The translations under genes and the position numbers were made by a program. DNA of 64,000 bases from Pisolithus tinctorius (Eukaryota > Basidiomycota > Agaricomycetes > Boletales > Pisolithaceae), in contig JANFAH010000035.1 in the NCBI GenBank assembly GCA_024663395.1, positions 1 through 64,000 on the forward strand, in the 5' to 3' direction. Positions 15,867-63,380 of the stretch are shown in pieces (the first letter of the stretch is position 1; each line of letters begins with the position of its first letter). Under the pieces are notes generated by a model that worked only from the letters and a program-made list of their open reading frames with translations, searched no databases and was not told where the DNA came from.

Positions 15867-15889
15867 CGTAGTTAGGTATATTATCTGAT

Positions 15890-41477: not shown

Positions 41478-42362
41478 TGGCCATCCAAAATGGCCATTGG
41501 TTTGGTAATTAGGTGTGTGGGAAAGAGGTCACATGACCACAAGGCTGGCAGCACAGGTGGCCATTTTGGATGGCCATAAACACTGCATGGGAAGCGGTCA
41601 CATGACTTCAAAGTTGGCAGTGCGGGTGGCCGTCTTGGATGGCCATAAACACTGCTCAGGATGTGATCACATGACCATAAGATCAGCAACGCAGGTGGCC
41701 GTCTTGGACGGCCATAAACACTGCGAGGAAAGTGGTCACATGACTACAAAGTTGGCAGCATGGGTGGCCGTCCAAGACGGCCATAAACACCGCTCAGGAA
41801 ATGATCACATGACCATAAGATCAGCAATGTAGGTGGCCGTCTTGGACGGCCATAAACACTGCGAGGGAAGTGGTCACATGACTACAAAGTCGGCAGCGTG
41901 GGTGGCTGTCCAAGACGGCCATAAACACTGCTCAGGAAATGATCACATGACCATAAGATCAGCGATGCAGGTCCGTCTTGGAAGGCCATAAACACTGCAA
42001 GGGAAAGTCGGCAGCGCGGGGTGGCCGTCTTGGACGGCCATAAACACTGTGAGGGAATTGGGACTATAGAACCAGCAATGCGGGGGGCCGTCTTGGACGG
42101 CCGTGTGCATTGTGGGGGCAGTTGTCACATGATGGTCTTGGCCGGTATCATAAGCGGCCGTCCAAGACGGCCATGCAAAAGCACTGACAGCTCTGTCACA
42201 TAATCCCAATACCCATGGTGCGAGGTGGCCGTCTTGGACGGCCAAACTCGTTGCGAGCCGCCTGTCACAGGTGGCCGTTCATGATGGCCACGTGCGTGTG
42301 GAGCATTTCAGTGACATGACTCGATACCTGTGGTGTGGGGTGGCCGTCCAAGATGGCCAACC
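41478..42362. repeat. Main array of the 19-bp hairpin element, about 14 copies at 69 bp
   Basis: TGGCCGTCTTGGACGGCCA or its reverse complement, with few mismatches, starts at 41478, 41558, 41627, 41696, 41765, 41834, 41903, 41970, 42022, about 42085, 42155, 42226, 42272 and 42341. From 41558 to 41903 the spacing is exactly 69 bp. TCACATGA lies midway (for example 41529-41536, 41598-41605). The two orientations of the loop (TTG or CAA) are mixed. The array lies between the convergent Ulp1-like gene and the gene at 42612-46006. Confidence 0.95.
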
Positions 42363-42611
42363 ACACTGTGATGGGACATAGTCACATGATCATGACATCC
42401 GCAATGTCCATTATGCACATTGCCATGACAGCCAACAGTGGAGTATGCAGGTCAGGTATGTAGGCATGTGACATGCCAAGTTCACATGGTCACTCAGTAG
42501 TGAGCTCACAGTTGTCATTCCAGGATTACTGGTCAAGACATAAACCATATCAAATTGTCATAACATCTAGAGCTGACAATGACATCTGTATACTATAATT
42601 TCACTTAGGAT

Positions 42612-45600
42612 TCAATCAGAATCTTCTTCCTCTTCCTGCTTCTGGAGTAGTTGGCTTATATACTGGGGGAATTCCCTAGTGAATTTGTTGAATTCAGCAT
42701 CCACCTGAAGTCCCTGTGGAGGCGGTTGCAGAATGGCATCCAATGCGGGTATCTGTGGCATGTAGCCCACGCCATAGCGCTGGTCAAGTGAGCTGTATGA
42801 TTGTGCCCTGTTGGTGACAGCAGATGGAAGTGGCCAGGGAGAATGTGATGATGATGAGTGAGGAGTCACCCGACTTGATGGTCCCGGACTGGGAGTGTGA
42901 TTCCAGAACAGGCTTGGCTGTCGCTCAGCGATCCTTGTGTCCTCCTCTTCCTCTTCTTCTTCCTCTTCCTCTCGCCGAATCGCAGTGCTTGGTCCAGCGT
43001 GGCGTGCAGTGGATGCTGCTTGATAGTCAGGTCGGTCATCTTCCTCTTCCTCCTCCTCCTCTTGCTGAATGGGAGACCTGGGATCTGCAGTCGACACTCC
43101 TCGAAATAAAGATCTCCGGTCATCTTCCTCATCCTCTTGCTGTATAGCAGCCCTGGGTGCAGCTGGTAGTTCATTGCCATCCTCATCTTCGCCCTCTACA
43201 ACATCAGCTGCATGGTGTGCAGCAGGTGTGACCCGCAAGAAAGGTTTCCCCAATCCCAGACGCCTGGCATTCGGATTCAAGGCGATCTGGGGTCCCGCTG
43301 GACGGTGTCCCTCAGGCAACATAAACCACCCCCTGCCTGTCATAGGCCTAGTGCACCATATCCTATCTGATCCAGTGAATGGGATCCACACCAGAGTATT
43401 GAACTTCTGGCGAATGGCTGCTTGCACTCTATTGCGGGATTGGACTCCAAGTGAGGCAATAAGGTCGAGCCATTTGTGATAATATGTACACTTGCGGAAG
43501 TTTTGTCCCATGGTGGTGGGCAATTGAGCAGGAAAAAGGCGGTTGAAATGGAGGTCCCATTGCTGCCCTGTGCAGAATGTGTACTGTGCTGCAAAGAATG
43601 GAAGGGCAAATGATCGATATAGGGTCTCGGTGGCTTCTTGAGATCGCTGCCGTGGGGGAATGTTGGTCCAACTACCTTCCGAAGCAGCTTTCTTGTTTGG
43701 AGATTCCTGTAGCAGATCATAAAAGAATTGTTCCAAAAGAACTTGGACCTGAGTCGCTGTATCTTCATCAGGCCCATCAGCATCAGAAATGAGCAGTTGC
43801 ACATCACGGTTTCCACCTCCATGTCGAGCAAAGTGATCAACATCAGGCCCTCGCATTCGCTTGGCAGGACGGATGGTGACATTTTCCAACAAGTCAATAT
43901 TGACCTGAGGGAGTGGTCGATCAGCTGGTCTGATATCCTGGATATGCAGGGTGGGGCGTTTGGAGCGATTGGAAGTGCGATGCCGATTCGATAATGTCCG
44001 TGGAAGATCATGATTGGCCACACCCATGATTTGTCGAACTTGGGGGAGAGTGAGCCGAAATGCAGACTGGAATGCCTCATCGGAGATGGCCTTATGGTAA
44101 GGCAGGCGGAAGGCACCACTATTATCTGTGACAATGTCACAGACAAAGTACAGCCCAGCTTCATACATGAGTGGCATGATTGCATCGTCATCTTGATCTT
44201 CAAAGCCATCATCATAGTCATCATAGTCTGTGGGAATATGTTGGCAAGCTTCTTTTGCCAACAGGAGGAATTTCTCGTTGGGTCGACGGTGCAGGCCATT
44301 GATGATCCAGATCATGAGGGCACCCAAGCCCAGAGCACAGTCTGATTTTCTGTCTCTGAAATCACTGTGATGCAAGTTTTTGATGACGATGTGGACTGCA
44401 GCTAATCGGTACCACTTGAACCACCTAACACAACCAAGAATAATTAGCAATTGCACCAGCATGCAAATAATTTACACTCACCACCATGACTTAGCAGGGA
44501 GAGGCACCAAACAATACCGCAACAGTCGACTCGGGATGGTGGTGAGGGCTGAGAGTGCCTGGGAGAATCCAACTCGAACTTCAAGCCGTGCACAACCCTC
44601 CTGTGCACGTCCACCCTCTGAACCACCAGTACATTCGAAGAGGATCTTGCTCATCTCCTCAGTTTTCTTGATGATGGTTTTGAGATTGTCAGTGGTGAGG
44701 AGAGATGTGGGATCCAGTGGGGTAAATAGACCTGGATGAAGCTGGTAAGACATAGTCTTCTCTGTTGTGTAGGCCTGAATGTAGTGGACTTCGTCATCGT
44801 GTCCTTTCCTCCCAGGCACATATCGAAAACCAGTGAGGTCTTTCAGATGCATCATGTGATCGATGTGGAATGTAGATTTGGTGACTATTGGGTCGATGAC
44901 TTCCTGATCCAGTGATGGGAGACAATGGGCAAGAACAATTTCATGCCCAGTTGCACGCCAAGTGACAACCTTGTCATGTTGTCCGAATTCAAGACCAACG
45001 TCGATGTACCAGCTGTCTGGATCAATCCTCTCCATAAGAAGCACATCAGTGAATTTTTGGAGGGCCAGATCTCGATCCTGTGCATCAAGGGGATCATGCA
45101 CAGTGGCACCCTTCCACCCTCTGAATTCATGAACAAAGTATGCATCTCGAAAGTAGGGTCGCAGTGTAGCAAGCTTGGTGAGATATTCCTCCCCAAACAT
45201 GGGCAGTATATGGGCTGGGATATCGAGAGAGCCTTCGTGGATGATTCCTGTTCGATCACGATAGAGGCTGAGAGCTGAGGAGTAGCTAGCAGGCCAATGG
45301 GATGCCATGTTATGCATGTGCCTTCGCACAAGTGGACGAAGGCATTTATCATACACAAGTTCGAGATCGTGTGATGGGATAGCCCTGGACTCATACTTGC
45401 CGACCATGCGAGGCAAGAACACTCGAATCACGGATCGATTGGCAACCTTGCCCAAGGAAAAATTGGGGATCTTGTGCATTGGCAAGTTCAGCTCTCTTCC
45501 CTGTTATGTAGGATTTGGTCAGACATGGACTCAGCTGCTTGGGACATAGGCAGGCACTAATCACTCACATCCACATAGGCCTTGGCCTTGAGATGATTAT

Positions 45601-46006
45601 CTGACTTCAAAGTATATTTGAACGGAGGGATGGGAGTGAGTTCCAAATGATTGGAGTAAGGCAAATCATGTGAAATGCCTATGAGGGAATCATAGTCACG
45701 AGAGACTTCATAGGGCCTGCGGTCTGGGAGGTTGTCGCAGGCGTTGACAGTGATGTGGCCAGGTTCACCATCTGGTTTGCGAGTGCGACCTGCAAGCATG
45801 AATCTGTAAAACTGCTTGGCAGCATAGGCCTCATCCCTGGGGGTGGCTGCATCCTCCTGTAAGTTGGCATAGAGCTCATCTGCTTGCATGCAGAACTCAT
45901 GGAAGCTGAGCTGGGTTGGGTTGGCTTCTCTGTCATCGGGATAACGACGGCCTGGACCTTCATCTGGGTCAGAGAAGTCATCATTGAACTGGTTGCCACT
46001 GGACAT
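42612..46006 (-). CDS. Unrecognised 1089-residue protein
   Basis: Exons 46006-45569, 45500-44482 and 44424-42612 join in one frame across introns of 68 and 57 bp (GTGAGT donors). The N-terminus is acidic (MSSGNQFNDDFSDPDEGPG). Exon 2 begins GRELNLPMHKIPNF and holds a globular part with WYIDVGLEFGQHDKVVTW. Exon 3 contains LALKEACQHIPTDYDDYDDG-like acidic text and a tail with several runs of glutamate (near 43.1-42.9 kb). I recognise no catalytic motif. It reads without a break, which with its length and splice sites argues for a working gene. It converges on the Ulp1-like gene with the hairpin array between; the pair may have been mobilised together, which is a guess. Confidence 0.65.
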
Positions 46007-46391
46007 AATGGAGGATGGTGCTTGGGTAAAGAGGGATGAAGGGAGGGAAGAAACAATCTCAGATGTGATGGCCAGGTATATATGCTGGTTGGGGTCGCAT
46101 ATCAGTCGGTTAAAATTTTCAGCACTACATCATATTTGGATTAGCTGGCAAGAGCATCTGCTTAGCGGTGTCACATTTAGCTCAGGGTTCGTTCCAGTGA
46201 TGAGTCATGGGGCAATGCAGAATACTAAGTGAATGAACACAGAAGGGAATGCATTGGCAGATTCCATTGGATGAAAAGATACATGAAGATAAGGAGGAAT
46301 GGAATGGGGGCACCAAGTATTAATGATGGGCACCTTGCTACAGATGTGTGAATCAAATGGAATTTGGAATCGTCGCACGCAAAATTTAGGA

Positions 46392-46868
46392 TGGCCTTCT
46401 TGGACGGCCAGTCGGGATGGAGGAGTGTATATCGCAGAATTTGGAATTGTGGCACAGAAATTGAAGATGGCCATCTTAGACGGCCAGTCGCTTCGGTGGC
46501 ATGAACGTAATGGAATGTGGAATGATGTCGCAACAAGATTGATAATGGCCGTCTTGGACGGCCAGTCGCTTCGGGGGCCTGAACGTAATGGCATGTGAAT
46601 GGTCGCGCCAAAACTGAAAATGACCGTCTTGGACGGCCAGTCTCCTCGGACGTGTGAATATAGCGGGGAATGGAATAGTGGTACCAAAAGATTCATGCCG
46701 GCCGTCTTGGACGGCCAGGTGCTACAGACATGCGAATGTCCATGGGGAATGGCATGTCACACCTACTATTGACGAGGTGCAGCCTGGACGGTCAGTTACT
46801 ACGAACATTTAAAAATCTTTGCAAATTAACATGCTTCAAGTATGCACGATGGCCGCCTTGGATGGCCA
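46392..46868. repeat. 19-bp hairpin cluster, 75-78 bp spacing
   Basis: Copies at 46392, 46468, 46546, 46621 and 46699, plus one at 46850 and a half-site near 46776. Here the intervals are 75-78 bp and the spacers contain recurring AATGGAATGTGGAAT-like text instead of TCACATGA. It is upstream of the 42612-46006 gene. Confidence 0.9.
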
Positions 46869-46999
46869 ACTGCGACAAGCATTCCCCCTAATCCACACAA
46901 TCAACACTGATTTCCTTCCGCACACACACCATACTTAGTCAGAGAATGTAAGGCATTCAACTTCAAATACACATAATTTGGCGACTGCCCACGAATATT

Positions 47000-47453
47000 T
47001 GGCCGTCTTGGACGGCCGTCACATGTGGGGTATAAGACCATGACGTGAGATAACCATGCGGTGAGTGCAGGGGGTGGCCGTCCAAGACGGGCTAAGTAAT
47101 GGAAGGGGTTACAGATCACGTGATGATGGCATCTCTCATGGCCTGTTGGCCGTCCAAGATGGCCACTGGCTGTGAGTTGAGTGCGTCACGTGACACGTGC
47201 CCCAGAGCACCGATGGCCGTCCAAGACGGCCATAAATTGTTAATCAGCTGATAGATGATAATAGTATTAGCTTTCCAATTCATTATAATGTCGTTGCCTG
47301 CTGGCCGTCCAAGCTGGCTATTGGGTGAGTGAGTCACGTGACAAATCCCCCCCAGTACCGATGGCCGTCCAAGATGGCCAGGCATCGCTGATGTGAAGTG
47401 AGTGAGTCACGTGACAAATGCCCCATTCTACCGATGGCCGTCCAAGACGGCCA
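47000..47453. repeat. 19-bp hairpin cluster with TCACGTGA
   Basis: Copies start at 47000, 47075, 47147, 47214, 47302, 47362 and 47435. ATCACGTGAT, GTCACGTGAC and GTCACGTGAC occur at about 47114, 47185, 47333 and 47406 between them. Confidence 0.9.
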
Positions 47454-47459
47454 GAAATA

Positions 47460-47979
47460 TCTGATCAGCTGTGTCACGACAGCATTAGCTCTCAATTCAT
47501 TGTCATGTGTTCAAGGTTTTCGCTCACCACTCATTAATCTTCTGATCTAGTGTTCCACCCAACTGTACCTACGAACGAGTGAGATCCGGTGTAACATCCC
47601 CCTCACCGATCCATTTAGCTTCGTGATACACCAGGTGTTATACTCCATTAATAATGCAAGCCGATGTAGCTTCTGATGTTAATTGACGAAGAGAGCGCCG
47701 TATATGGCAATCACGCCCTCCAACAGAATTGGGACACATACCATCGCATGCGATTGGCTAACATCTGCGTTGTCCATTCACAATGCTAGTCATGCAAAAC
47801 AAAACACAAGGTATGTTATTCGTCTACATAGTCAACATACCACAAAATGACACGACTGACGAAAGGTATAGATGAGGGGGGAGGGATATGCAACGTAGCG
47901 AATGCAATATGTATGACGTGAAATAGCGACAATGGCATCATTAAAACCACAGGCGGGCGAGCAAACTTGACGACGACGA
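47460..47979. other. Intergenic, nothing recognised
   Basis: No open frame with motif, no hairpin element. It separates the hairpin cluster from the 3-prime end of SNF2 copy 1. Confidence 0.4.
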
Positions 47980-50900
47980 TCACGGCTTACCCTGGCGGCT
48001 ACCTCTACTGCCTCTGCCACCTCTAGCATTCCTTCCGCACTTTGAGGTGGGTTTGGAGCTGGCACTCCCGTCCTTGTTGGTTGACAAAGAGTGGCCATGG
48101 GCAGTACCGCGAAAACCTGATGCGGCTGTGCTCGGACCCGCGGATGATTCACCTGGATGCTCTGGGAGTGATGATGGGAGGGGAGTGAGAGGCGATGAGG
48201 TGGGAGACTGGAGGTTCTTGATTGCGAGCGCTTCGTCTTCGTCAGGATCGTTTTGGCCTCCCGGTGCCTGTAACTGCGCCAAGATCTTGTCGACGGGGTC
48301 TGTCGTGGTAGTGTCTGCGCCGACCTGCGATGTCGGCACAGTTGCCGAGCCCTCGTCAACCTGCATCGCCGCTGTGACCACCGTGAGCGACCCTACCATG
48401 GCTCCGACTGCGGTCAGGGTGCCACTCCGCCTGCGCTTGGGCCGTTTTTCGGGAGCTTCGGGCGAACTCACCGTGGAACGCTTGTCGCCAGTCTTCTTGC
48501 TGCCCGACGGTTGAACATCATCCATGTCCGATGGGACGTCCAAAGACACGGCGTCGCTCCGCTGGGGCTGTTTTCCTTTCGTGTCGATGGCAGCTTTGGC
48601 GCGGGGTTTGGATTTGCGCTTGGGTTTGGGACGTGACGGCTTCTTTGGCGGTTCGTCGCCGTCCCCGTCATCGTCGTCGCTGAGGGAGGGAACGGATGAG
48701 ATCGACAGCAGGCCCTCGCCATCGTCGTCGTTCTCAAACAACCCTTCTGTGGGCGGGACAAATAGATATTAGAGACCAATGTAGAGCGCTAGCATGTACT
48801 CACTGATTTCATCCGTACATCCCACGAACGTGGAGTGGAGTTGGCCTTTATCGAAGGATATATTGTTGAGGAAGACGTCTGGGGTTGCCAATGCGATGAG
48901 CCGGTAAATGTGGACTTGCTTCTGTTGAGGATACCAGAAGATCCTCCCGTGCAGCTGCTCGTCATCGAGTGCTGACCACGTAGTATCCTGTGACGTGAAT
49001 GAGTTGTTGTTGAAAATCTAGATCAAGATGTGAAAGGCTTACCACAATGACCATGATGTTTGCGCACGCCAGGTTGAGGCCCACCATCCCAACGTTAGAA
49101 ATGATGAGAACACGATGGCCGGTGGTCCGCGTTGACGTGCGGAAATCATCCAACGCAGCCTGGCGCTTCTTGAGCGTCATGGTCCCATTCAGCTCGATCG
49201 CTGCGATGTCGTATAAAGCAAGAACCTGCAATTTTGCCTTAGATATAAAAATGAGGAGATTGAGTATGGACGTACGTCGATCAATGCCTGATTGGATGAA
49301 GGGAACGCGGAATAGATGATGATGCGGTCGTCATCGCCATAGTCAGTCTCATCGGGAACGCCATCGGGAGAGGTGATGAGGGTTTGACCATCGTCAGCCA
49401 TGGTCAGGGGAGCGCGGCCGTTTGAATCAAGATGGTGGCGAACCACCTGACCGAGGGTATCCAGCTTAATAGTCTTCTCGCATTGCCAATCTTCGAGTGA
49501 CTCCAGCCGCTTCCAGTGCCCGCCATTCTTAGGATTGAGCATTGGATGCAGCATCGAGCGGCGGAATTCAATATAAAAATTCTGACAAAATTACATATCA
49601 GTATAAATTGACAGCTGCACGGCAACGAGCGTGGCTGTCTAAGACGGCCAAAGACGGTGAGGTGTGTAAGTAGATTGTTGCGTGGGCTTACAGGGTGCAC
49701 TGGCCGTCTAAGACGGCCATTGCGCGTGGGTACTTAGTGAATACGCACGCAATGTGCGACGTTGGCCGTCTTGGACGGCCAACTGGCATGAGGGATTACA
49801 ATCTCCCACGCCACATTCCCACGGGGAGTGTATGCAGGTTGGCCGTCCAAGACGGCCATCTGCAGATGTGGCATGGCGATGCGGATTCCCATGGATGGTG
49901 CCGTCGAGGATGGCCGTCTTGGACGGCCAACTTCGATTGACCGCACCCATAATAAAATTGAAATTTCCACTCACCTTGCGGGTGTCCGCACTAGCGATGG
50001 GGTTCTCCTTCACCAAATCCTTCGCAAAGCTCCTCAATATGCCCATCTCCGCGTCGTACATCTGCAGCTTCAATATATGCTCTTGGTAGGGCCGCATGCC
50101 AAATAATTTGTTTCCGCCGAAGTCCACAGAGTCGATGGTTCGACGAATCACGTAGTATGCAAACCGATCGCGAATCTTGACCATCCATTCGCGGGTGACC
50201 TCCGGGGATAGCAAATCCGGGGTATTCTGGTTGCGGACGCCGATGAACACGCCACGTATGATACTGCCTTCGACGCCAGCCTCACGCAAAGCCTTCGAAT
50301 CTTGGCGGTTGGCGCGATTAATCTCCTTATTGAGCTCCAAGAATTCGCGATGGTCATCAAAACCGGGGATACCCATCCATTGCCCCATGATGTATAAGTC
50401 CTACGCGTCGTCAGTGGAATGTTCGCGCAGTTGTTAATGCTACGTACCTGTACCTTCGTCGTGATAGGCGTCGCTGTCATGGCAATGGCACATGTGGCCC
50501 TATCCTTCAATCCGCGGAACGCACGATGAATCTGGTTATGTTTCCGCGCACTGTGTGCCTCGTCCATGATTACAAGGCAATATTGTCGGCCATAAACGGT
50601 GAGCGGGGCATTACTTTCGAATTGGGTGCCAGGGACGGCATGTCCGGCCTTCTCCTTGATCGTCTGTGGCGTGAATACATTGATAGCATCATCTTGAATG
50701 GCCTGGCACGAAATCAGTGTATCTGGGGGTCATAATCCACCTGACACGTACCGTCTGAGTGGCGAGAACGATGCGTTGGCAGAGGGGTTGCTTGCTCGCT
50801 GCGAAGAGATCAGTCCACCATGCACGCCGAGCATCCAACCATCCAGTATATGGCATTACGTCGAATGACGATGGCGACAGAAAACGTCGGATTTCGCTTT

Positions 50901-52540
50901 CCCACTGTTGTTTGAGGTTCACCGGGCACACGATGACATGCGCAAGGTCAGGGATATTGCCGTCTGTTGTGCCAAATTTGCAACCCGCTGGACTTCACTC
51001 AGGGGATGGCACGCATACACGAATGAGATGTGACATACCGAAATCACCAGGGAACGTTCCCTTCAATGTGTAAGCCCGTCGATAATACGCAAGGCACGCA
51101 ATCGTGCCGAGAACCTGTAAAGTTTTCCCCAGGCCGACACCGTCCATGAGTAGGACTGGCTTTCCCTCAAATGCTCACTCGAGCATGCGATAGATCCCGA
51201 CCAACTGATGCCACCGCGGCTGCAACGGTTCGCGCTTATCGGGCATGTTCGCAAGCCACGCTTTGCCCTCCTCTGACCAAGGATCAATCAGACCGTCAGG
51301 GTCAGTCCAACGCTGGAAGAAGGGTAGTTGCCGATCGGGGAAACCTAATTTGCGCCATAACTGTTCCTCGGTGACCTTCGACAGCGCCTCCACTCCTTCT
51401 CTCCACTCTGCATCGATGCGGTCATCGAGATCGAGTTTGATGCGTTCAACTGATTCCGCGCTGTCGAGATCTTCGATAGAAGCCATTAGTGCTTGCGTGA
51501 TGGCGAGGACATCTTCTTCGGACGCCAGACTCAGTAGAATGTCGCGTAGACCTTTAGGCAGTTCTGTATATAATTGACTATGAGAGTGGTATGATAGTGT
51601 TGACATCACTTACTGTCTGTCGTTTCGCTCCCTGGTTCCTTGCGTATGACTCGCAGCATCTCCACCATATCTGCCAAGTATTGTTCGACACGAGCGCGAC
51701 GGTCCTTGTCATCGTACCGAACATATATTTTCAATAATTTCCGCAGGTCCTTGATGAACGACTTGATTTGCGCAGGTGTCGGCTTAGCGCCTTCAGCGCT
51801 GAATGCTATGAACAAGAATATCTGAGACCAAATTATTGAAGCCACGATCGCACTCACCAATCCATGATTGGGTTACCATTTCATACAAAGAATCCATCAA
51901 GCGTACGTCACGCGACACCGCCTTGCGGTACCGATTCCAACTCAAACTCAAGATCGTGCGGCAGAATTTCACCACCTCCCCTTTCAGGAGGCTACTTGTC
52001 CCTAGGAACGCCTCGTCTCCGAATAATTTTTGTGCGAGTGGAGTGGCGCAGTCGTAGATTTGTGCGGCCTCGGCATTGGGTAACTAGTGTGGAATACTGA
52101 TTAATGCCGGATGATTCGTGCGAGTGCCTACTTACAGTTGGTGTCTTGAAGTCATGTAGGATTTGTATGGGGGAGCGACCAGCAGTCTCAAGCACCTCGT
52201 CGATAATTCTGTTGATGCCCCACTGCCCAGATCGTTTACTGACGAAGGCGGCCCAGGCGGTGCGGCCTGCGGAATCATTATCTGCATCCCGCTTGGCGAT
52301 ATAGGCATCCTGTGCGGCACTGGCCATGCCCCACACCGTTGTGGCGAATGACTTGACTTGGTTCGCAACTCGAGTGGTCCACTCGGGCACGTACAGTGAG
52401 GGTGAATCGTCCGGCGCGTTATCGACTGTGGACCACGGCTCTCCGGGAATCCTGGTCAGTGCTTGCCATGACGCCACACTCCATGGAAGGCCTTCGCCGC
52501 CGAGCGTAAGAAGCGCAGCTCTTAACGATTGAGTTGGCAT
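47980..52540 (-). pseudogene. SNF2-family ATPase, paralog 1 (decayed)
   Basis: Eleven exons can be matched one to one with paralog 2. The N-terminus is MPTQSLRAALLTLGGEGLPW. Motifs in order: MDGVGLGKTLQ (motif I, near 51140), HVIVCPVNLKQQW (Ia, near 50930), VIMDEAHSARKH (II, near 50560), MTATPITTK (III), ISNVGMVGLNLACA (V, near 49090), then motif VI. TGA at 51177-51175 stops the protein just before motif I; paralog 2 has Arg there, so CGA-to-TGA is likely. Motif VI reads QLHGRIFWYPQQ against QLRGRIFRYPQQ in paralog 2, losing both arginines by CpG-type changes. The acidic then Lys/Arg-rich C-terminus persists. One intron (49974-49582) is 393 bp and filled with hairpins. SNF2 proteins remodel chromatin with ATP; this copy cannot make a full enzyme. 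Confidence 0.8.
49582..49974 (-). repeat. Enlarged intron of SNF2 paralog 1 filled with hairpin elements
   Basis: The other introns of this gene are short. This one is 393 bp and has hairpins starting at 49632, 49701, 49763, 49840 and 49911. Donor GTGAGT and acceptor CAG are intact, so the array is confined to the intron. Confidence 0.85.
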
Positions 52541-52849
52541 GCTCGCTGTGATCGTCAATGGATATCACAAATGAGAGGGGAATGGTTGGGGGTGAGAGAA
52601 GAGAAGGATTGGCGGGAAGGTCAGAAGCAGGTCAATACTTATACCCTCCACCATGTGTTTACCTCATGGTGTGCCATTGGGTGATCCGCGAACGCTGCCG
52701 TCACCATGATGTGCATGTGCCGATATCCATCGATAACATTTCTGCCGATGATCTGCCGTGTACTCGCCGATTTCTCACATGCAATTCCACCTTAGATAAC
52801 CTATGATAATCTAACATGCTCGTGGGATATATATGTTTAGTTCCGGATG
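52541..52849. promoter_or_regulatory. Upstream region of SNF2 paralog 1
   Basis: About 310 bp between the SNF2 start codon and the first hairpin at 52850. Nothing specific such as a TATA box is convincing. Confidence 0.25.
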
Positions 52850-53260
52850 TGGCCGTCTTGGACGGCCAACGGGCACACGGACTAAATGTGACGTGGTCTC
52901 GTCGCCTAGGCCTCTGTGGCCGTCCAAGACGGCCACTGGCACACGCACCAAGGGTTGACGTGGTTGAACGCCGATTCGACGTCATTGGCCGTCTAGGACG
53001 GCCGACTGGCACAAGGACCGAGAGTGACGCGTATTGCACGCCGATTCGACGTCATTGGCCGTCTAGGACGGCCGACTGGCACAAGGCCCGAATTATGGAA
53101 TTGCATGCCATCCAAGATGGCCAGCTGGCAGACGACGCCACGGTCATGTGATCGCATCCTCGCCGACACGGATGGCCGTCTTGGACGGCCAAGGGCAGAC
53201 GCCATGCATGTCACGTGACACGAAGGCTGCTGATGTCGTCGGGCCGTCCAAGACGGCCAT
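52850..53260. repeat. 19-bp hairpin cluster upstream of SNF2 paralog 1
   Basis: Copies start near 52850, 52917, 52986, 53056, 53106, 53173 and 53242. Around 52968-53020 and 53038-53090 a 50-bp block ending GACTGGCACAAGG is directly repeated, a duplication of one hairpin with its flanks. GTCATGTGATC and GTCACGTGAC occur near 53142 and 53211. Confidence 0.9.
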
Positions 53261-53554
53261 TCCGGCACAAAGTGTGTATGTAACTGGATGACATCATCAC
53301 ATCATGTAGTGCACTTGGCCGTCTGATGCAGGCAAATGCGAACGGCTTCCTCACATGACTTCGACACTCATCCCACACCCATTGACATGGCCGTCAGACC
53401 ACTTGTTCGTCCAACCACAACTCCGTCGCAGGCGACGACTTCACCGACCACCACTCCCCTTCCCCCCAACCATGGCATCCCAGAAGTGAAAACACTTGTC
53501 CTCTGCCGTGCATAATCTACCACAGCCTACCCTCAAATTGCCCTCTGTTCTCCA

Positions 53555-56500
53555 ATGGCTTCGGTCCTTCAGCTTTCCTATCAGCAATCCCCACCTTGAC
53601 CACAACAATGAAGAACTACGGCGAAGACGTCACATGTTCTTCATCTACATCTCACTATGCCCCAAGTATCTTCGGGCCAACCATTGAACTCCCCCCTCGA
53701 CGAACTCCTTGACTCGTGCAACACAGAGACACCATCCACATCTTCTGCATTGGACACCATGCAAGACCTTCCAGGTGAAGTACATGCACACCTGGATTTC
53801 GACACCCCGGATTGACACATATCCCTATACGGCCAAGGCCTTTCTCCTACCATCCTCCAATACAGGCGCGACTCCTACATCCAATGCCCGCACCAACTCG
53901 ACTCCTAATGTAAATACAGGCCCTGCAAATCCCTGCATCTCTCGTCGCCCACCCCAGCTATGGTCACACGCGCTCATTGGACTGCCCAAACTAACCCCAG
54001 TGCTGGTATGACTCATGCTAAACCCAGTTCTAGCCCTGGAACTCATGGTTGTCCCGCTTTAACAGTCAAGGCTTCCTCACACCTAACCCAGTCCTCTACT
54101 GGTTCTATTGCCACTGCGTTGAGTGTGCTGGGGGGTGCATCAGGCGGTGGATGCGGTGCGAGCGCTGTGAACCCTCCAGGTCGTAAATAGGTGCGTCCCC
54201 CTGGCCCTCTCCGCAACTAAATCTCAACACAGCACAAACGTCAGCGCCCCAAAACCATGCGGTCTGACCATGCCGAGCGACACCCCACTACTTCCACATC
54301 CCACATATCCACCCATACATCCATCCACGCATTCACCTCTTCCAACACACACGGTAGTCATAGTAGTGCTGGCGCACGGGGTGGGGATCATATTGGAGAG
54401 AGCCCACCCGGAACTGGGCACACAAATACGCATGGGAATCACAGCGGAGGAGGCAGAGGCAACGTGTCAGGTACGTTACTTTTCTTCCTCGCTTTCAATG
54501 GGATATGGGTGGTGTTGGTTTCTTTGTTGTGGTGTTTCGGAAGCAAGATGTTTTTTTAAGGAGGTGGGGGGAGCCTGACGCTGACTTGTTCATTTGGGTT
54601 CATTCATTAACAGGATCATGCTGGTGACGTATGTGCCCAACATGTTCAGCTGGGACGAATGGGACGGCGCAATGCTATAACTGTCATACAACCGTGACAC
54701 CACTCTGGAGGAAAGACGACGAGGGGAAGACCGTTTGTAATGCATGAGTGATCAGCTGTTTGTTGATCTCCACAAGAGGGATGATTGACATACACCTGTG
54801 GTCGGTTCCGGGGTATCGTAAGTCTTTCCTGTCTTGTCTAGTACCATGATGCGATGAAATTTGGACAGCTACACATTGCATGGCTCCGCTCGGCCTATAT
54901 CTATGAAGTCTGACATGATATGTAAACGGTCCTGCCATGATATGTCTGCTGCCGCAGCACGCCGATCTGTCGCAGATACCCATGCCTCTCAAATGTCCTA
55001 CATCAATGCCAGTAACACAATCACCATCGCAATGTGCGAATGCCTGGTTCTAGGTCATCTGGGTCAGGCACGACTTCGGCGTCCAGTTCACCTGGCCCGA
55101 GTTGCTGTGCTTCTCCAAACATAGATACAAATGTTGGTGTTCATGGTGTTGGTGTGCACAGTGTGGGTGCGGCGGGGACAAGTAGGTCGGAGTTGATGGG
55201 AGCTTTGGGTGGCGACAACGTCGTCTCTGGGTATGGGTCCATCTCGAATCTCAATATGCCCATGAACATGAGTAGCATGAGTCTTGGAGGAGGGGCAGGA
55301 AATGGAATCACATTAGGCGGGATCCATATTGGAGGTGTCCTAGGTCACGCCTACGCAGGAACTTTTGGACATCATGCATACCCTGGTTCGTATCACCCGG
55401 ATTATCTGTCCTCCCAGTTTCACTTGGATGCCACTCTTCCATTTTTGGGTGTCGACAGGATGGACGGAGAAGAGAGCCCGGGAGCCACTGCTACTGGCGG
55501 CGGTGCTGGAGGAGGAAAGGAAGGAGAGGGAAATGGGGAGGCAGATGCAGATGAACACAGAAGCTCTAAATGCTGCTGCATGAGCACCGACTCAGCAGGC
55601 GAACCACCTTCATCAGCGGTTTCATGCTCATCGTATGCAGAGAGCATGACGTCGGCATCTACTGCCCCAACCTCGGCGATATCTGGTCATTCAAAGCCAG
55701 GCTTCGAAACCACATGGCCATGTGCATTTGCAGTCGATGTCCGCGCCGGGTCAAGTTCAGGCGCAAGCAATGTCGGCGGGTACGCCCCAGTCTCAGGACC
55801 AGGGACAGAATTTTTCAGGGTCACACTCACAAGGGCATGGTCATGGACATTCCCAATCTCTTTCTTTGCTCCTGCAGTCGTCTTCGTTGGCAAATGCACA
55901 TGGTCAGTCACACTCACTCTCCCATTCTGGTATCTCGCATTTGCATCCACAGTCATCCCTTGCAGCAGCACATGGACTGTCATCCTCTAGCTTGCTTGGG
56001 TCTCACGCGCACCACGTTCCTCCACATCCTTCGCAAGCAGCCTCACATCACCTTCTCGCGTCTCACCATGCGTTCTCTTCTCACTCACGGAGATCAAGCA
56101 TGGATTTCCCATTTTTCACTCCTTATGGTGTGTTCCATGGATCAGTTTCAAACGCGTTCTGGCATCCTCCGATGGTGATTGCTGAACCCGATCAGTCCCC
56201 TCAGCCGTTCCATTCATCCGCCGGTGTTGTTGCTGGATGATTGGCCGACCGGTGGCGAGGGTGGGTCGTCATGACCGGGTGCTGCTGCTGTTTCCTCGGC
56301 AACTTTGGTTTCTGGTGCGTCTTCGGAATCTATTTCGGTATCCGCCCTGAATGATGGGAGTTCCGGTGGGGCTGGGTTGTCTTCCTCCAATGCTGGAGGT
56401 GTGGCAGCAACGGCAGGAGGGTTCTTGTTCAGTGCTGGGTTCCATCCACCAATGCTGTTACCCGAGGAGGTGAACCTGTTTGCGACATATTTTCACCCCC

Positions 56501-56640
56501 CGATGTTGTTACCTTCTGAAGACGGAGACGTACAACAGGAGGGAGGAGATACTACAGGGTCTTCTGCTACGTCACATAGCGAGAATCAACAACACCGACG
56601 GAGAATGGACGACGGTAGCCAGCAAGATAGGCAAGAGTAA
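53555..56640 (+). pseudogene. GATA-type zinc-finger transcription factor, heavily mutated
   Basis: From ATG 53555 to 54190 one frame is interrupted only by TGA (53597, 53609, 53813), TAA (53906) and TAG (54188); each fits a C-to-T change of CGA, CAA or CAG. After an intron comes a Ser/Gly/His-rich part, then a GTACGT intron and the finger: CPTC, CYNCHTTVTPLWRKDDEGK, VCNA. The fourth ligand region is scrambled at 54737-54760 and further TGAs occur at 54625 and 54786. A separate piece, LHGSARPISMKSDMICKRS (54873 on), matches the usual text after the finger. A Ser/Gly/His-rich region follows to 56240 with frame changes near 55700 and 56215. Four HPP motifs (FWHPPM, HPPVLL, FHPPMLL twice) mark the C-terminus. 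GATA factors bind WGATAR DNA. The gene is dead as written. Confidence 0.75.
54836..55110 (+). repeat. Source half of a 275-bp duplication in the GATA pseudogene
   Basis: Contains the post-finger coding text and matches 56884-57160 closely (shared CTAGTACC, TGAAATTTGG, GCATGGCTCC, GCCAGTAACA and GCGTC blocks in order). Confidence 0.75.
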
Positions 56641-56883
56641 GGCCGAGTTCACTCCTCCAATACACTCGGTTTCGCTTGTTTGCTCACTTTGCGGACGCCA
56701 CATTCTCATTTACCTGGTCACGATCTGCGGCGTTGAAGTCATTTTCTCACTTTCTTTTATTGTACATCTCTTGGCTTTTTTTTTTGTGGGTGGGAGTAGA
56801 CGGCATGGCAATCCAATCAACTGAAAGCAATGCATAACCCGTGCGGTTTTTTCTCTCCTGCTAGTGAGTCCTTCTTGCCTTCT

Positions 56884-57160
56884 CTAGTACCGTGATGCAA
56901 TGAAATTTGGGCAGCTACCAATTGCATGGCTCCACCTTGGCCCATATCTATGGAGTCTGACGTGATACCTAAACGATCCCGCCATGATGCGACCTGCTGC
57001 CGCAGCCACGGCGTGCTGATCTGTTGCAGATACCCATGCCACTCAAAAGTCCTACATCAATGCCAGTAACAATCACCTTCGCGATGCGTGAACTCCTGGC
57101 TCTAGTCCATCTAGGTTACGACTTCGGCGTCTGCTTCACCTGGCTTGAGTTGGTCCTGGT
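56884..57160 (+). repeat. Second copy of the 275-bp GATA-linked segment
   Basis: A diverged direct repeat of 54836-55110, about 2 kb downstream, placed after the HPP-rich C-terminus. It carries further C-to-T and indel differences. Its coding frame is broken. Confidence 0.75.
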
Positions 57161-57305
57161 ACCACTACATCAGGTGTGTCAGGTGGTTGGCACAAGGGCT
57201 ACGAACACTGGATTGGGGCGGGTGACCATAAGTAGACCATAGCAGTTGCAAAGTTGGATCATTTAGTCCACAGTCGCAACTGTAGGCGCTGGCTATTGCT
57301 GGCAG

Positions 57306-57533
57306 TGGCCGTCCAAGACGGCCAGTGCGCACGGTATGTGGAGAAGGGGTGACATGATGATGAGGTCATTGTTGTGCATGACCGTCCAGGAAGGCCACGT
57401 CGGATGTGGGATGTGGTCACATGACCAAGAGGTCTACTTTTGCGCATGGCCGTCCAAGACGGCCACTTCGGCTGTGGGGATTTGGTCACATGACCATGAG
57501 GGCCGTGTGGCACATGGCCGTCCAAGATGGCCA
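57306..57533. repeat. 19-bp hairpin cluster
   Basis: Copies at 57306, 57379 (variant), 57447 and 57515, with GTCACATGAC near 57419 and 57485 midway between neighbours. Confidence 0.9.
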
Positions 57534-57539
57534 GTAGAT

Positions 57540-58020
57540 GCACACTGCTCGCGCATGCATATTGTGGTTCTTTTCGTATCATGCCTGCCCCGGCGCTATC
57601 ATCCCACAGCATCATACAATGTTATTGTGATTGTTAGTAGGCGATTCAACTCACTACGAACCCGATGCAGCAATGCAATTCTGGCATGTCTTCAGCATTC
57701 ATGCAAGGTCATTGTGCATGTCAACCAATTCCTTACAAATGAGTAACTAGAACATGGCCGGCGCCGCCGGCAGGCACCTTGTTTACCACGCTGGAGCGCA
57801 GTCACGACCGATGGGTTTTGCCGTGCGGAGTCAATTGATAGACAGATGCGCGGATGTCGAAAAAAGCGTCTCATTTTCGGGCTGGAGTGACCTTGTAAAC
57901 AAGGTGATGAGTGATTTATGTACACACGGCTGACACGGTCTATGTTTCGACAGAAGGGCAGCGATATAGAGAATGGCCGGCAAAGTATATACTGAAACAC
58001 AAATGACATGCAGATGAATA
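57540..58020. other. Intergenic, nothing recognised
   Basis: Lies between the GATA-side hairpin cluster and the 3-prime end of SNF2 paralog 2. Short GCCGGCGCCGCCGGC-like palindromic sequence occurs near 57760. Confidence 0.35.
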
Positions 58021-58024
58021 AGCT

Positions 58025-61000
58025 CTACTTACGCCTATGAGTACCCTTGCTTGCCTTCCCACCCTTGGTGTTGGATGTCTTGCCGGTATTGCCATCCTTG
58101 GTAGTGCCCAAATTACCCCCATGTGCAGCACTGCGAAATGCAGGGGCGCTTGTGCTAGGACCTGCTGATGGCTGGCGATGTGGGATCGAGTACGTAGGCT
58201 GGGGGTGCACCTGGAGCTGAGATTCATGCAGAGGGGTGAGAGGGGAGAGTGGGGGAGAACGGGACCTCCGGAGGTTTTTTTGGGCCTCCGCGTCGTCCTC
58301 ATCCGGGTCATTTTGACCGCCGGGGGCGTGGAGTTGCTCCATGATGTCGTCCAATGGGGGTACCATTGGAGAGTCCTCACTGACATGCGAAGTCGCCGGT
58401 TCCGGTTCTTCCTGTACATGCATCGCGGCTGCGGCATGCGTGAGCGATGTCACCTCATTTGTCGCAGCAGCGACAGTGCCGCCACGCTTGCGCTTGCGCT
58501 GCTTGTCGGCACCCTCGGGGGAACTGCCAGGGCCGCGTTTCTCGCGTCGGTGGGGCTGCTTCTTACTGCGCGGCTTGCTCCCCGGCGGGTCGATGTCGAT
58601 TGATGATGCTGCGTTCTCCTCACCTTCATTTTCGGATAGCTCCGCCTGGCGATGTTTCCCTTTCCCCCAACCAACAGGTGTCTGACGCTGTTTTGGAACG
58701 GGTTTACTACGCGATTTCTTCGTCCGTGCGCCATCATCATCACCATCTAGGTTGTCGTCGCCGCCATCAGATTGAGTCGAGGAAATCGACAGTAAACTGT
58801 CGTCGCCCAAACTGTCATCCTCGAATAGTCCCCCTGTGGTCGGGTATTGAGGTAGTACAATTAGCTAGGTAGTAACATTGATAGATTCAACGCACGAATG
58901 TCGTCTGTACATCCTATGAAAGCGGAGTGGAGTTGCCCTTTGTCGAATGAGATGTTGTTTAAGAAGACATCGGGGGTGCCGAGTGCGATGAGCCGGTAGA
59001 TGTGCACTTGCTTTTGTTGTGGATAGCGGAAAATTCTGCCTCGCAACTGCTCATCGTCCAGCGCAGACCACGTTGTGTCCTAAGATGCATATGAGGATGG
59101 ATGAACAGCGCCGACGAATATCTGAGAAATTTACCACAATCACCATGACGTTGGCACATGCCAAGTTCAAGCCCACCATTCCGACATTTGAGATGATGAG
59201 GACACGATGTCCTTTCGTGCGCGTCGAAGTACGAAAATCATCAAGCGCGGCCTGGCGCTTCTTCAGCGACATCGTCCCATTCAGCTCGGTAGCCGCGATG
59301 CCGTACAAATCCAGAATCTACAGAGGGTGTGAGATACTCATCAGCGAATACACCCACACACTTACATCGATCAAAGCCTGATTCGACGATGGGAAGGCGG
59401 AGTAAATGACGACTCTGTCGTCCTCACCATAGTCGGACATGTCCTGCAAGCAATCTGGAGCCAGGGTGAGGGTTTGACCATCCTCGGTCATCGTCAAGGG
59501 CGCGCGGCCATTTGAATCGAGGTGGTGGCGAACGACGTGTGCAAGGGTATCCAGTTTGATTGTCTTCTCCTCCTGCCAATGAGTGAGTGAGAGTGGCTTC
59601 TTCCAATGACCACCATTCTTCGGGTTAAGCATAGGGTGTAGCATAGAGCGCCGGAATTCGATGTAGAAATTCTGAAACGACAGATGCATCAGGACAGGTT
59701 GATACAGATGGTGTGGAGGGACAGATCCGGCCGTTGGGGACGGCCAAGTGCAATAAGCCCTACAAATGCGTGTAGGGCACGACTGGAGGCGAGTGGCCGT
59801 CTTGGACGGCCACATGCCGCAAACACTTGCAATCACGTGAGCGTGTTGGCGCACATCACATTGGCCGTCCAAGACGGCCGTCCCATGCGGCACTGGTTAT
59901 GTATAAGTTCCCACGGCCAATGCCATCGCACGATGGCTGTCCAGGACGGCCATCTCGACCCGAAGCGCATGGAAATAAATAAATGATGCCACTTACCTTT
60001 CTGGTATCGGCACTTGCAATGGGATTTTCTCTGACCAAATCCTTGGCAAAACTCCTGAGTGCTCCCATTTCATTGTCATACATTCGCAGCTTGAGGGTAT
60101 GTTCTAAATACGGCTTCAAGCCGAATAGCTTGTTGCCGGCGTGGTCCACAGAGTTGATCGTCCGACGAATTACATTATGCGCAAACCGATCGCGTATCTT
60201 CACCATCCACTCACAAGTAACCTCTGGAGACAACAAGTCGGGTGTGTTCTGATTGCGGATGCCGATGAAGACGCCGCGAATGATACTGCCTTCGATCCCT
60301 GCCTCGCGCAATGCCTTCGAGTCTTGGCGGTTGGCACGATTGATCTCCTTGTTGAGCTCCAGGAACTCGCTATGGTCATCGAAGCCGGGGATCCCCATCC
60401 ATTGTCCCATAATATATAAATCCTATCAGAGCATTTTAGTGGTGATGGGCCAAGTGGGTCACATTACATAACATAACATACCTGAGCTTTTGTTGTGATG
60501 GGTGTTGCTGTCATCGCAATGACCGAGGTCGCGCGCTCCTTCAGTCCACGGAAGGCTCGATGAATTTGATTGTGCTTCCGTGCGCTGTGCGCCTCGTCCA
60601 TGATGACTAGGCAATATTGTCGTCCGTATAGCGTTCGGGGGGCATTTGTCTCGAATCGTGTGCCAGGGATGGCATGGCCCGCCTTCTCCTTGATGGTCTG
60701 CGGGGTGAAGACAGTCACAGCATCATCTTGGATGGCCTGACATGATGATAGTGAATAGGTGATGGGGTGAATGACAAATTATTCACTTACTGTTTGAGTT
60801 GCAAGGATTATCCGTTGGCATAACGGTTGCTTGCTGACTGTGAACAATTCTGTCCACCACGCGCTGCGAGAATCCAAACGACCGGTGTATGGAAAGAGGT
60901 CAAAAGAGGCTGGCACTAGGAAACGTCGGATCTCGCTCTCCCACTGCTGCTTCAGGTTGACGGGGCATACGATCACGTGTGACAAGTCTGGGACATTACC

Positions 61001-62577
61001 GTCTGGAGTGTTGAATTTTAGACCAGCTAGAACACAATGAGGGGATTGCAGAAATATGACAATGTGATGGACTGACCAAAATCTCCTGGAAATGCCTTCT
61101 TCTTCGCGTAGACATACCGGTAGTAAGCAAGACATGCAATCACACCAAGCACCTGAAGGGTCTTCCCCAGTCCCACTCCGTCCATCAGTAAGATCGGCTT
61201 GCCCTCGAACACACGCTCCAGCATACGGTAGATTCCGACGAGTTGGTGCCATCGCGGTTGGAGCGATTCCCTCTTCTCCGTCATATTTTGAAGCCAGGCC
61301 TGGCCTTCATCTGACCAAGGATCAATCATTCCATCCGGGTCGGTCCATTGTTGGAAGAAAGGAAGTCGCTGATCGGGGATTCCGAGCTTCTGCCACAATT
61401 GCTCATCGGAAAATTTGGACAATGCCTCGACCCCTTCCTTCCAATCTGGCTCGATCGGGGCATCTAGATCGAGTTCCACGGGCTCGACAGATTCGGCACT
61501 ATCGAGATCTTCAATTGAGACCAGCAGGGCTTGGGTGATGGCCTGGATGTCATGTTCACTTGCGAGACCGAGTAAGATATCTCTTAGATTTTTGGGAAGT
61601 TCTATAGATATTTCGCGATCAGTGGCAACTCATAATTCGGACACGACTTACTGTCTGAATCCTCGCTGCCTGGTTCCTTGCGAACGACTCTCAACATTTC
61701 GACCATGTCCGCCATATATCGTTCCACCCGAGCGCGCCGTTCCTGGTCGTCGTATCGGACATAGAGTTTCAATAATTTGCACAAATCCTTAATGAATGAT
61801 CTGATAGCACTGGTGGTGTGGGTAGTGCCCTCAGCGCTGAATGCTGTTAAAGATCACGTTGAACTCCATTATATTCACATGCCAATTGTCACGCACCTTT
61901 CCAGGTTTCCGTTACCACGTCGTAGAGTGTATCCATCAAATGTACATCGCGTGCGACCCCCTTACGATACCGATTCCAACTCAAGGTGAGAATCGTTCGG
62001 CAGAATTTGATGACGGCCTCCTTCAGAAAGCTTCCCCTGCCTACGTATGCATCGTCCCCAAACAGTTTCTGGGCAAGTGGGGTCACGCAGTCGTAGATCT
62101 GCGCAGGCTCGGCATGAGGCAACTGGATCAGTGTGATATTACACTGATTAAGGTGGTGATGGTTATACTTACGCTCTTTGTGCCCAAATCGCGCAGCATT
62201 TGATTGGGAGCTCTGCCGGCAGTCTCAAGGACCTCATCGATAATCTTGTTGATGCCCCATTGAGAGGACCTCTTGCTGACGAAGGTAGCCCATGCGGTGC
62301 GCGCTGCTGAATCTTTGTCTAGCACACGCTTGGCCATGTAGTGGTCCTGGGCCCCGACAGGCATGCCCAACACCGTAGTGACGTATGCATTGACCTGTGC
62401 GGCGACTCGGTTCGTCCACTCGGGCACATAGAGTGAGGGGGAATCTTCAGGAGCATTGTCGACTGTTGACCATGGCTCCCCAGGAATCCGAGTGATTGCC
62501 TGCCAAGATGGCACACCCCAAGGCAGTCCTGCCGATGAGAGAGCGAGCAAAGCGGCCGTGAACGACTGAGAAGGCAT
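58025..62577 (-). CDS. SNF2-family ATPase, paralog 2 (intact as read)
   Basis: Start MPSQSFTAALLALSSAGLPW at 62577. About eleven exons, roughly 1,200 residues. Residues before the ATPase are helical, with a family-specific N-terminus (PSLYVPEWTNRV, DEVLETAGRAP). ATPase motifs: MDGVGLGKTLQ (near 61170), HVIVCPVNLKQQW (near 60970), VIMDEAHSARKH (near 60600), MTATPITTK (near 60500), ISNVGMVGLNLACA (near 59180) and QLRGRIFRYPQQ (near 59030) with its arginines. The C-terminal 250 residues have acidic, then Lys/Arg-rich low-complexity sequence, suited to nuclear location and DNA contact. No stop or frameshift was found. The intron at 59996-59672 holds hairpins at the same place as in paralog 1. The two genes differ widely at silent and many amino-acid sites, so the duplication is not recent. 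Confidence 0.85.
59672..59996 (-). repeat. Enlarged intron of SNF2 paralog 2 filled with hairpin elements
   Basis: 325 bp against about 50-70 bp for the other introns. Hairpins start near 59730 (variant), 59794, 59862 and 59934. The donor (GTAAGT) and acceptor (TTTCAG) match the position of the paralog 1 intron, between ASADTRK and NFYIEFRRS. Confidence 0.85.
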
Positions 62578-62885
62578 TGCAATCGAAGTATATCTAGAAC
62601 AGAAGTACTGATCAGTGGAAGTGGAGATGGTGAGTGGGAGAAGAGAAGAGAAGGCAGGAAGAATTGATGTGAAGTGCGTTCTTATAGTCCAAGCCTTGTG
62701 TACGTTACATGATCATGCCAGCATCAACATGTTGATCCGATGTATAGTCGCGGAGTTTCCAATCAGATCGATAATCGATTGATTGCATTTAGTCAAATCC
62801 TAAAAAATCAGGTTGCATATCGGATACGATCATGAATAGCATTGCCGGAGCTGCTGAGATTGAACGATGCATCGCAGAGGGTGCA

Positions 62886-63359
62886 TGGCCGTCTTGGACG
62901 GCCACCGCCATGCGGGTCTCAGTGTCGATGTGACAGCACGTTAACGATGGCATTGACCGTCCCAGACGGCCAACTGGCAATTGACCCTATGGACAGCTCG
63001 GACTAGATTACTGACAGTGATAATGAGCAATATATATTGTACACTGGTACGGGTCAATACTCTTTGGCCGTCTTGGACGGCCACCTGCAATGGAGGGTGT
63101 AAATCATGTGATCGACTAGTGGAGGTCCACCTCTGGCCGTCTTGGACGGCCATCCACATATGGGCATGTCAGTCACATGACCGATGTGCCCATGGTGAGG
63201 GATGGCCGTCTTGGACGGCCAACCGGTGTGAGCGCACTTCGGTCATGTGACTTGCCTACTGCAGTGCAGGATGGCCGTCCAAGACGGCCACGCTGCATGA
63301 TGGAGGATGCAGTCACGTGATCATGAGCCCGTCGGGCTGGTGGCCGTCCTGGACGACCA
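62886..63359. repeat. 19-bp hairpin array upstream of SNF2 paralog 2, exact 69-bp spacing
   Basis: Copies at 62886, 62955, 63065, 63134, 63203, 63272 and 63341; six of the seven sit on 69-bp steps (62886 to 62955, then 63065 to 63341). TCACATGA, TCATGTGA or TCACGTGA occur midway (about 63105, 63173, 63243, 63312, 63370). Spacer sequence is unlike that of the 41 kb array, yet the period is the same. Confidence 0.95.
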
Positions 63360-63380
63360 AAGCTGCCATCACATGATCGC

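Follow-up and report, generated by a model that had tools for sequence, protein, structure and literature searches.

What are the arrays of short palindromes near the start of a Pisolithus tinctorius contig for, and why does a second short word keep step with them? The stretch in question, here called the window, is the first 64,000 nucleotides of contig JANFAH010000035.1 (C35), one of 221 contigs in the 92.5 Mb assembly GCA_024663395.1. An earlier reading of the letters alone (the original prediction) had claimed that 19-bp hairpins lie exactly 69 bp apart in the best arrays, with a second palindrome at the midpoint. As described below, the two types of site do stand in a fixed phase, which is more regular than that reading had shown, and the arrays lie upstream of, and in one intron of, the readable members of a subtelomeric SNF2-type gene family, the most important piece of context that it had missed. 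We put it at about an even chance that the lattice is a two-factor platform (cis-regulatory or chromatin) of this helicase family for putative protein binding.

The second site keeps a fixed distance from the palindrome

Palindromes were counted with the pattern TGGCCGTC-NNN-GACGGCCA, allowing up to 3 mismatches in the window, and shuffled sequence provided the expectation. This gave 53 palindromes in seven arrays where 0.22 were expected. The second site had been described as a palindrome also in the form TCACATGA, which is incorrect, since that form reads TCATGTGA on the opposite strand; the word is written here as TCAYRTGA and counted on either strand. It occurs 29 times in the window against 9.85 +/- 3.0 expected, and for 24 of these a palindrome is no more than 200 bp away.

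A set of 76 spacers of 60-95 bp was collected from C35, C28, C55, C23, and C36, leaving out C106 because it is a copy of the window, and de-duplication reduced the set to 49, of which 34 come from C35. The remainder of the fetched loci served as background, and the word is commoner between the hairpins than there: the 76 spacers hold 38 TCAYRTGA words against 0.41 expected and the 49 hold 21 against 0.27. Of the 21 words in de-duplicated spacers, 19 lie 33.5-35.5 bp from a palindrome centre, where the null (20,000 draws) has a mean of 2.0 and a maximum of 9. The same distance to a palindrome centre is found for 39 of the 51 words located within 200 bp of a palindrome. At a held-out locus on C15, which was fetched later and played no part in setting the phase rule, 6 of 9 words deviated from 34.5 bp by no more than 1 bp, against a null mean of 0.29.

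The predicted 69-bp period stands as the mode of the palindrome intervals (18 pairs), but the intervals range from about 66 to 81 bp. Where they are exactly 69 bp the word does sit in the middle, at the exact centre in 5 of 5 intervals at 41.56-41.9 kb and within 1 bp of it in 4 of 4 at 63.07-63.34 kb. As a general rule the midpoint describes 17 of the 21 words (within 1.5 bp), but it fails in the wide intervals. Among the five de-duplicated word-bearing intervals of 73-81 bp, those of 73, 78, and 80 bp retain the distance of 33.5-34.5 bp on one side of the word only, the 74-bp interval has it at 36.5/37.5, and in the 81-bp interval it is off phase. Because three of the five keep only one side, the palindrome-to-word distance is a better rule than the midpoint, and a couplet distance of 34.5 bp leads to the midpoint position in 69-bp intervals; it looks as if the couplet, rather than the midpoint, is constant. 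By length, the word is present in 1 of 4 spacers of 60-65 bp, 26 of 36 of 66-70 bp, 4 of 13 of 71-75 bp, 7 of 17 of 76-81 bp, and 0 of 6 above that (n=76).

Arrays with unrelated spacers have this period in common, as originally proposed. Outside the word, the spacers of the 63 kb array show a mutual identity of 16-37% (24-37% with one reversed), and they match those of the 41 kb array at 11-34% (16-42% reversed), which is about chance, so the common period cannot be ascribed to recent tandem copying between the two arrays. The 41 kb array is itself a tandem repeat with a unit of 69/138 bp, and its spacers are 61-92% alike.

Other words may take the place of TCAYRTGA, which is mostly missing from the intron arrays described below and from the array at 46.4-46.7 kb. 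GTGGGAA was found 7 times in the de-duplicated spacers against 0.44 expected, and 8 of the 10 copies in the full set sit in spacers without TCAYRTGA. Its distance to a palindrome is 33.0 bp in 7 of 10 cases in all 76 spacers and in 4 of 7 after de-duplication; since three of the seven in-phase occurrences (on C36) mirror three on C55, 4 of 7 is the independent count. Inspection of the spacers showed that the seven share one orientation relative to the palindrome. At 52.85-53.0 kb the slot is occupied by TGACGTG or TGACGCG.

We take TCAYRTGA to be a basic helix-loop-helix (bHLH)-like word, GTGGGAA a CSL-like and TGACGTG a bZIP-like one. The genome encodes bHLH domains (15 HLH matches) and has LAG1-DNAbind (CSL-type) matches at C1 and C3/C70; together with the short spliceosomal introns noted below, these domains suit a fungal genome. 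Several HLH genes are present twice with identical scores on different contigs, suggesting that the assembly holds two haplotypes. Words with a CACRTG core are repeated in phase, as in a bHLH (Cbf1-like) array, with putative occupancy. Collectively, the original observation is confirmed, and its interpretation as a cooperative array of Cbf1-like factors is partly supported, binding being putative.

The arrays accompany a subtelomeric family of SNF2-type genes

The window contains two SNF2-type genes and the seven arrays:

41478..42389, no strand: array 1, 14 palindromes (<=3 mismatches) and 9 TCACATGA, partly a recent 69/138-bp tandem expansion
46392..47453, no strand: array 2, 13 palindromes; intervals of 75-78 bp without TCAYRTGA in the 46.4-46.7 kb part, 4 TCACGTGA in the 47.0-47.45 kb part
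47980..52540, minus strand: SNF2-type gene copy 1, exon 1 73% identical to copy 2
49632..49929, no strand: array 3, 5 palindromes in the long intron of copy 1, without exact TCAYRTGA
52850..53259, no strand: array 4, upstream of copy 1, 6 palindromes (<=3 mismatches), the nearest 310 bp from the ATG of copy 1 (52540); slots filled by TGACGTG, TGACGCG or TCAYRTGA
57306..57533, no strand: array 5, 4 palindromes and 2 TCACATGA, about 0.5 kb past the stop codon of copy 2
58025..62577, minus strand: SNF2-type gene copy 2, intact open frame over 11 exons, 1,248 aa, with SNF2-rel_dom and Helicase_C
59728..59952, no strand: array 6, 4 palindromes in the long intron of copy 2, with one TCACGTGA at 59833
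62886..63376, no strand: array 7, upstream of copy 2, 7 palindromes, the nearest 309 bp from the ATG of copy 2; TCAYRTGA central (+/-1 bp) in four successive 69-bp intervals

All ten introns of copy 2 are GT-AG; nine are of 48-62 nt, and the sole long one (59672-59996, 325 nt) holds array 6. The long intron of copy 1 (49582-49974), set by GT/AG and the reading frame, holds array 3. The protein matched SNF2-rel_dom (1.9e-18), Helicase_C (6.6e-14) and ResIII (1.1e-05) in Pfam, and its best-scoring PDB chains are Ino80, Rad54-like, DDM1, and similar remodellers. A relaxed Pfam search with exons 1 and 11 found nothing, and a DNA-binding fold at the N-terminus was given up as a candidate, the exon-1 model being too poor (mean predicted local distance difference test score, pLDDT, 48.6) and no fold search having been made.

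One helicase exon used as query gave 13 matches in the genome, and for part of these, to which those on C15, C23, C42, C87, C98, and C1 do not belong, a terminal position was established. The distance from a telomeric start is 2.8 kb on C106, 17.8 kb on C2, and 14.2 kb on C45, and the C55 match lies 21.3 kb from a telomeric end; those on C35 and C36 are near contig starts without telomere repeats. The genes on C2, C45, C55, and C106 are transcribed towards the chromosome end. Tracts of TTAGG/TTAGGG are present on 17 contigs (read at the C28 end and the C106 start), and at least five of these 17 (C2, C28, C45, C55, and C106) have palindromes within their final ~30 kb. Genome-wide, the exact 19-mer with loop YWR has 38 matches, only on C28, C35, C55, and C106 (control 0); with up to 2 mismatches and a free loop there are at least 194 (control 8), and GGNYGTCNNNGACRNCC has at least 183 (control 19). 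C106 joins window positions 58.5-63.5 kb to 36.7-41.4 kb, which means reshuffling between ends. Its mixed TTAGG/TTAGGG telomere (L022:1-172) cuts off an SNF2 copy in the 3' part of the gene, where the chromosome end looks as though it had been healed.

Nine SNF2 copies were read for intron arrays (the two of the window, C106, C55, C36, C23, two on C15, and C1), scoring palindromes at up to 4 mismatches. Eight of the nine have 3-5 palindromes just before the NFYI exon, in an interval that opens with a GT splice site in 6 of 8, its start being taken from an exon match on C55 and from position only on C36. Pattern matches on C2 and C45 place palindromes at corresponding distances. The clades with intron arrays are 57% identical in one helicase exon. 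One intron-array spacer carries a different inverted repeat, CCCTACA...TGTAGGG, in the window (59728-59812) and on C23 (L027 5537-5620). The ninth copy (C1) is a diverged fragment without the part that would hold the array. This relative (43% identical) was dropped as an array-free outgroup, as it has no counterpart to the query residues between 398 and 813; its fetched upstream side (~3 kb) holds no palindrome at up to 4 mismatches. Upstream of the gene, the nearest palindrome found precedes the ATG by 299-315 bp in both window copies, C106, and C23; in C36 and C55 the gap is 471-500 bp.

Both arms have changed together in one clade

Pair 4 of the palindrome was tallied over 143 sites (C106 copies included) and is C-G in 99, G-C in 37, and neither in 7, with one G-G and zero C-C. 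The G-C form, TGGGCGTC/GACGCCCA, has 42 sites at up to 1 mismatch (reversed control 0), 40 of them on C2, C36, C45, and C55, the clade whose SNF2 exon is 57% identical to that of the window. Arrays of the C-G form are additionally present on C55, at 352-354 kb. A symmetric C-to-G change is fixed in one SNF2 clade, and it is the only change that stands. The GGCTGTC/GACAGCC form of C23 was rejected as compensated coevolution because the C23 and C15 copies have lost nearly all their CpG and their arms have decayed in all combinations. Observed/expected CpG is 0.01 at the C23 locus (L027) and 0.02 at the C15 locus (L029) as compared to 0.6-0.85 in the copies near contig ends, suggesting that the C15 and C23 copies are methylated relics; the terminal C28, which has no SNF2 match, shows 0.30. 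Among the arms of the window palindromes (41478-63359) and their relatives, one-sided C-to-T changes are commoner on the plus strand in C35 and on the opposite strand in C28/C55, which amounts to one orientation relative to the telomere side, a bias inflated by related copies.

A putative platform for two factors, and its rivals

Starting from the phase, the locations, and the two-sided arm change between clades, which were observed directly, we infer protein binding that would be cooperative and would have a regulatory outcome of either sign (activation or silencing). A symmetric (dimeric) protein would bind the 19-bp palindrome, and a second factor of bHLH-, CSL- or bZIP-like type would bind 33-35 bp away, in a slot that usually holds TCAYRTGA and at times GTGGGAA or TGACGTG. 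Neighbouring proteins may touch or be bridged in a fixed geometry along the array. Their place upstream and in one long intron of the copies readable there makes it most likely that the arrays govern the transcription or chromatin state of the SNF2-type gene, which sits at a silencing-prone chromosome end. Of the accounts that explain the upstream and intron location, the phase, and the symmetric change, such a platform is the simplest.

Several results weigh against this interpretation. Only 21 of the 49 de-duplicated spacers have the word, so it is absent from more than half. Arrays also lie away from promoters (57.3 kb and 41.5 kb), and C28 carries arrays yet gave no match in the SNF2 exon search. 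Genome-wide, TCACGTGA taken as a single word shows no enrichment (1,999 versus 2,098 for the reversed word), and clusters of TCAYRTGA with other spacings are not specific to the palindrome system. Purifying selection on the arms between recent copies was not seen, as arms change as fast as spacers: between C28 and C55 the changes are 15/224 bases in arms (13 of the 15 being transitions) and 80/1507 in spacers, and in intron 7, window against C106, they are 4/64 and 12/241. The upstream array alone favours the arms, with 0/112 arm and 5/479 spacer changes.

The SNF2 unit could instead be a selfish telomere-associated mobile element, with the arrays as recognition sites for its own spread, bound by its helicase or a partner, and the word recruiting a host bHLH factor, as other mobile families of the genome may also do. 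This we consider unlikely, although the unit is multi-copy and reshuffled between ends (the C106 join), the site change tracks the SNF2 gene clade, and TCAYRTGA is densely clustered in two further repeat families. Pairs of words 60-88 bp apart number 836 and 774 genome-wide versus 14 and 8, and the matches listed, all on C1, belong mostly to these dispersed families, A and B; one listed cluster, near C1:554 kb, was placed in neither. Family A is a near-identical inverted-repeat element with inverted repeats of about 1.02-1.09 kb, for which 40 half-element matches of 96-100% identity were found (40 of 81 candidates scored). Two loci, L031:1-2600 (C1:407901-410500) and L033 (C1:855001-857400), hold 20 and 18 TCAYRTGA in 2.6 and 2.4 kb, together with TTACGTAA/TTACATAA palindromes, and some modules read word-12 bp-TTACRTAA-42 bp-TTAYGTAA-12 bp-word, placing the words 66 bp apart. 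Family B (L032:1-2600, C1:1695901-1698500) is an older inverted-repeat element with 43 matches of 73-100% identity and 31 TCAYRTGA in 2.6 kb, many of them alternately 14 and 38 bp apart. None of the three A and B loci read has the 19-bp palindrome. Because the two families carry the word without it, clustering of the word appears to be a wider repeat habit of which the lattice is one special form, which suggests a common host factor recruited by repeats with family-specific partners.

Further against a mobile element, the arrays themselves were the only inverted repeats of at least 35 bp in window 34.5-64 kb, C35 57-94 kb, C106 1-20 kb, and C55 345-365 kb, and a terminal inverted repeat element around the SNF2 unit was rejected for want of a bracketing repeat in these four stretches; nor did any transposase model match among the window open reading frames scanned.

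Somewhat less probable still is that the arrays are subtelomeric minisatellites without function, whose likeness is maintained through tandem duplication and gene conversion, the phase being frozen ancestry. The tandem structure of the 41 kb array and the equal rates of arm and spacer change between recent copies would fit. In the 63 kb array, however, four palindromes are exact while the spacers match each other at chance level. In addition, three of five long intervals preserve the distance between the word and one palindrome, and a two-sided transversion has been fixed in one clade.

We regard as similarly doubtful a self-addressing selfish system, in which each SNF2 clade (or a co-encoded partner) would recognise its own palindrome arms, GGCCGTC or GGGCGTC. 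Its promoter and intron would carry the phased lattice, which it would use with a host bHLH/CSL factor to remain active and spread between ends, and protein and sites would coevolve as a result.

That the palindromes work as folded structures, hairpins or cruciforms of RNA or single-stranded DNA, and not as binding sites in duplex DNA, is very improbable and was rejected: the perfect 8-bp stems with 3-nt loops and the compensated change at pair 4 would suit it, but the outer pair is non-complementary in 19 of 50 C55 and C36 sites, the stems are otherwise uniform in sequence and not freely compensated, the arms of CpG-decayed copies decay into all combinations, one intron holds both loop orientations, and an Rfam scan of the window gave 0 matches at gathering scores.

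Comparison with known systems

Telomere-linked RecQ helicases (TLH), such as UTASa of Ustilago maydis and those of Agaricus bisporus var. burnettii, are described as multi-copy genes close to telomeres, some of them truncated (PMC7473861, PMC10532341). The SNF2 family resembles them in being multi-copy and near telomeres, within tens of kb on C106, C2, C45, and C55, and in the direction of transcription on these contigs. As its domain is SNF2/Helicase_C and not RecQ, we do not class it as TLH. The main text of PMC7473861, to which our word search was confined, contains "palindrom" and "SNF2" 0 times, and among the literature titles and abstract openings searched there was none on such a lattice or on SNF2-type telomere-linked genes.

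In yeast, sites of the general regulatory factors Tbf1/Reb1 are arrayed in subtelomeric X and Y' elements. The likeness lies in arrays of protein-type sites adjoining chromosome ends, binding here being putative; the words are different, however, and the fixed 34.5-bp couplet and the location in a gene intron set the present arrays apart. The Cbf1/CDEI-type E-box is TCACRTG, whose core is bound by Cbf1-like bHLH factors in fungi. The 8-mer matches this word, but here it is phase-locked to a 19-bp palindrome without a raised genome-wide frequency, and its binding is putative. DNA transposons of the En/Spm TNPA type carry subterminal arrays of short sites. These are likewise in both orientations, and families A and B carry the 8-mer inside inverted repeats, whereas the SNF2 arrays are placed both upstream and downstream of the gene as well as in an intron, and the four stretches showed no inverted-repeat ends.

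Several fungi are known to have families of subtelomeric helicases, and the present case may bear on what maintains and controls them. A phased two-site cis-element together with an SNF2-type gene offers a candidate gene-plus-sites system of chromosome ends that can be tested directly, and the lattice lends itself to measurements of protein-protein geometry on DNA.

Other features of the contig

Tandem satellites of ~305 and 153 bp occupy window positions 15875-18498, 25187-27724, and 32578-34078. They have a common 8-mer, TGTTCGTC/GACGAACA, with 70 copies in 94 kb of C35, of which 67 lie at 16-19, 25-28, and 32-34 kb, partly arranged in 10-bp tandem runs. A 1,420-aa open reading frame at 36270-40532 has no Pfam match; most of it is also present at C106:5.3-10 kb (96.8%), and the DNA immediately downstream of it recurs at C28 (97.3%).

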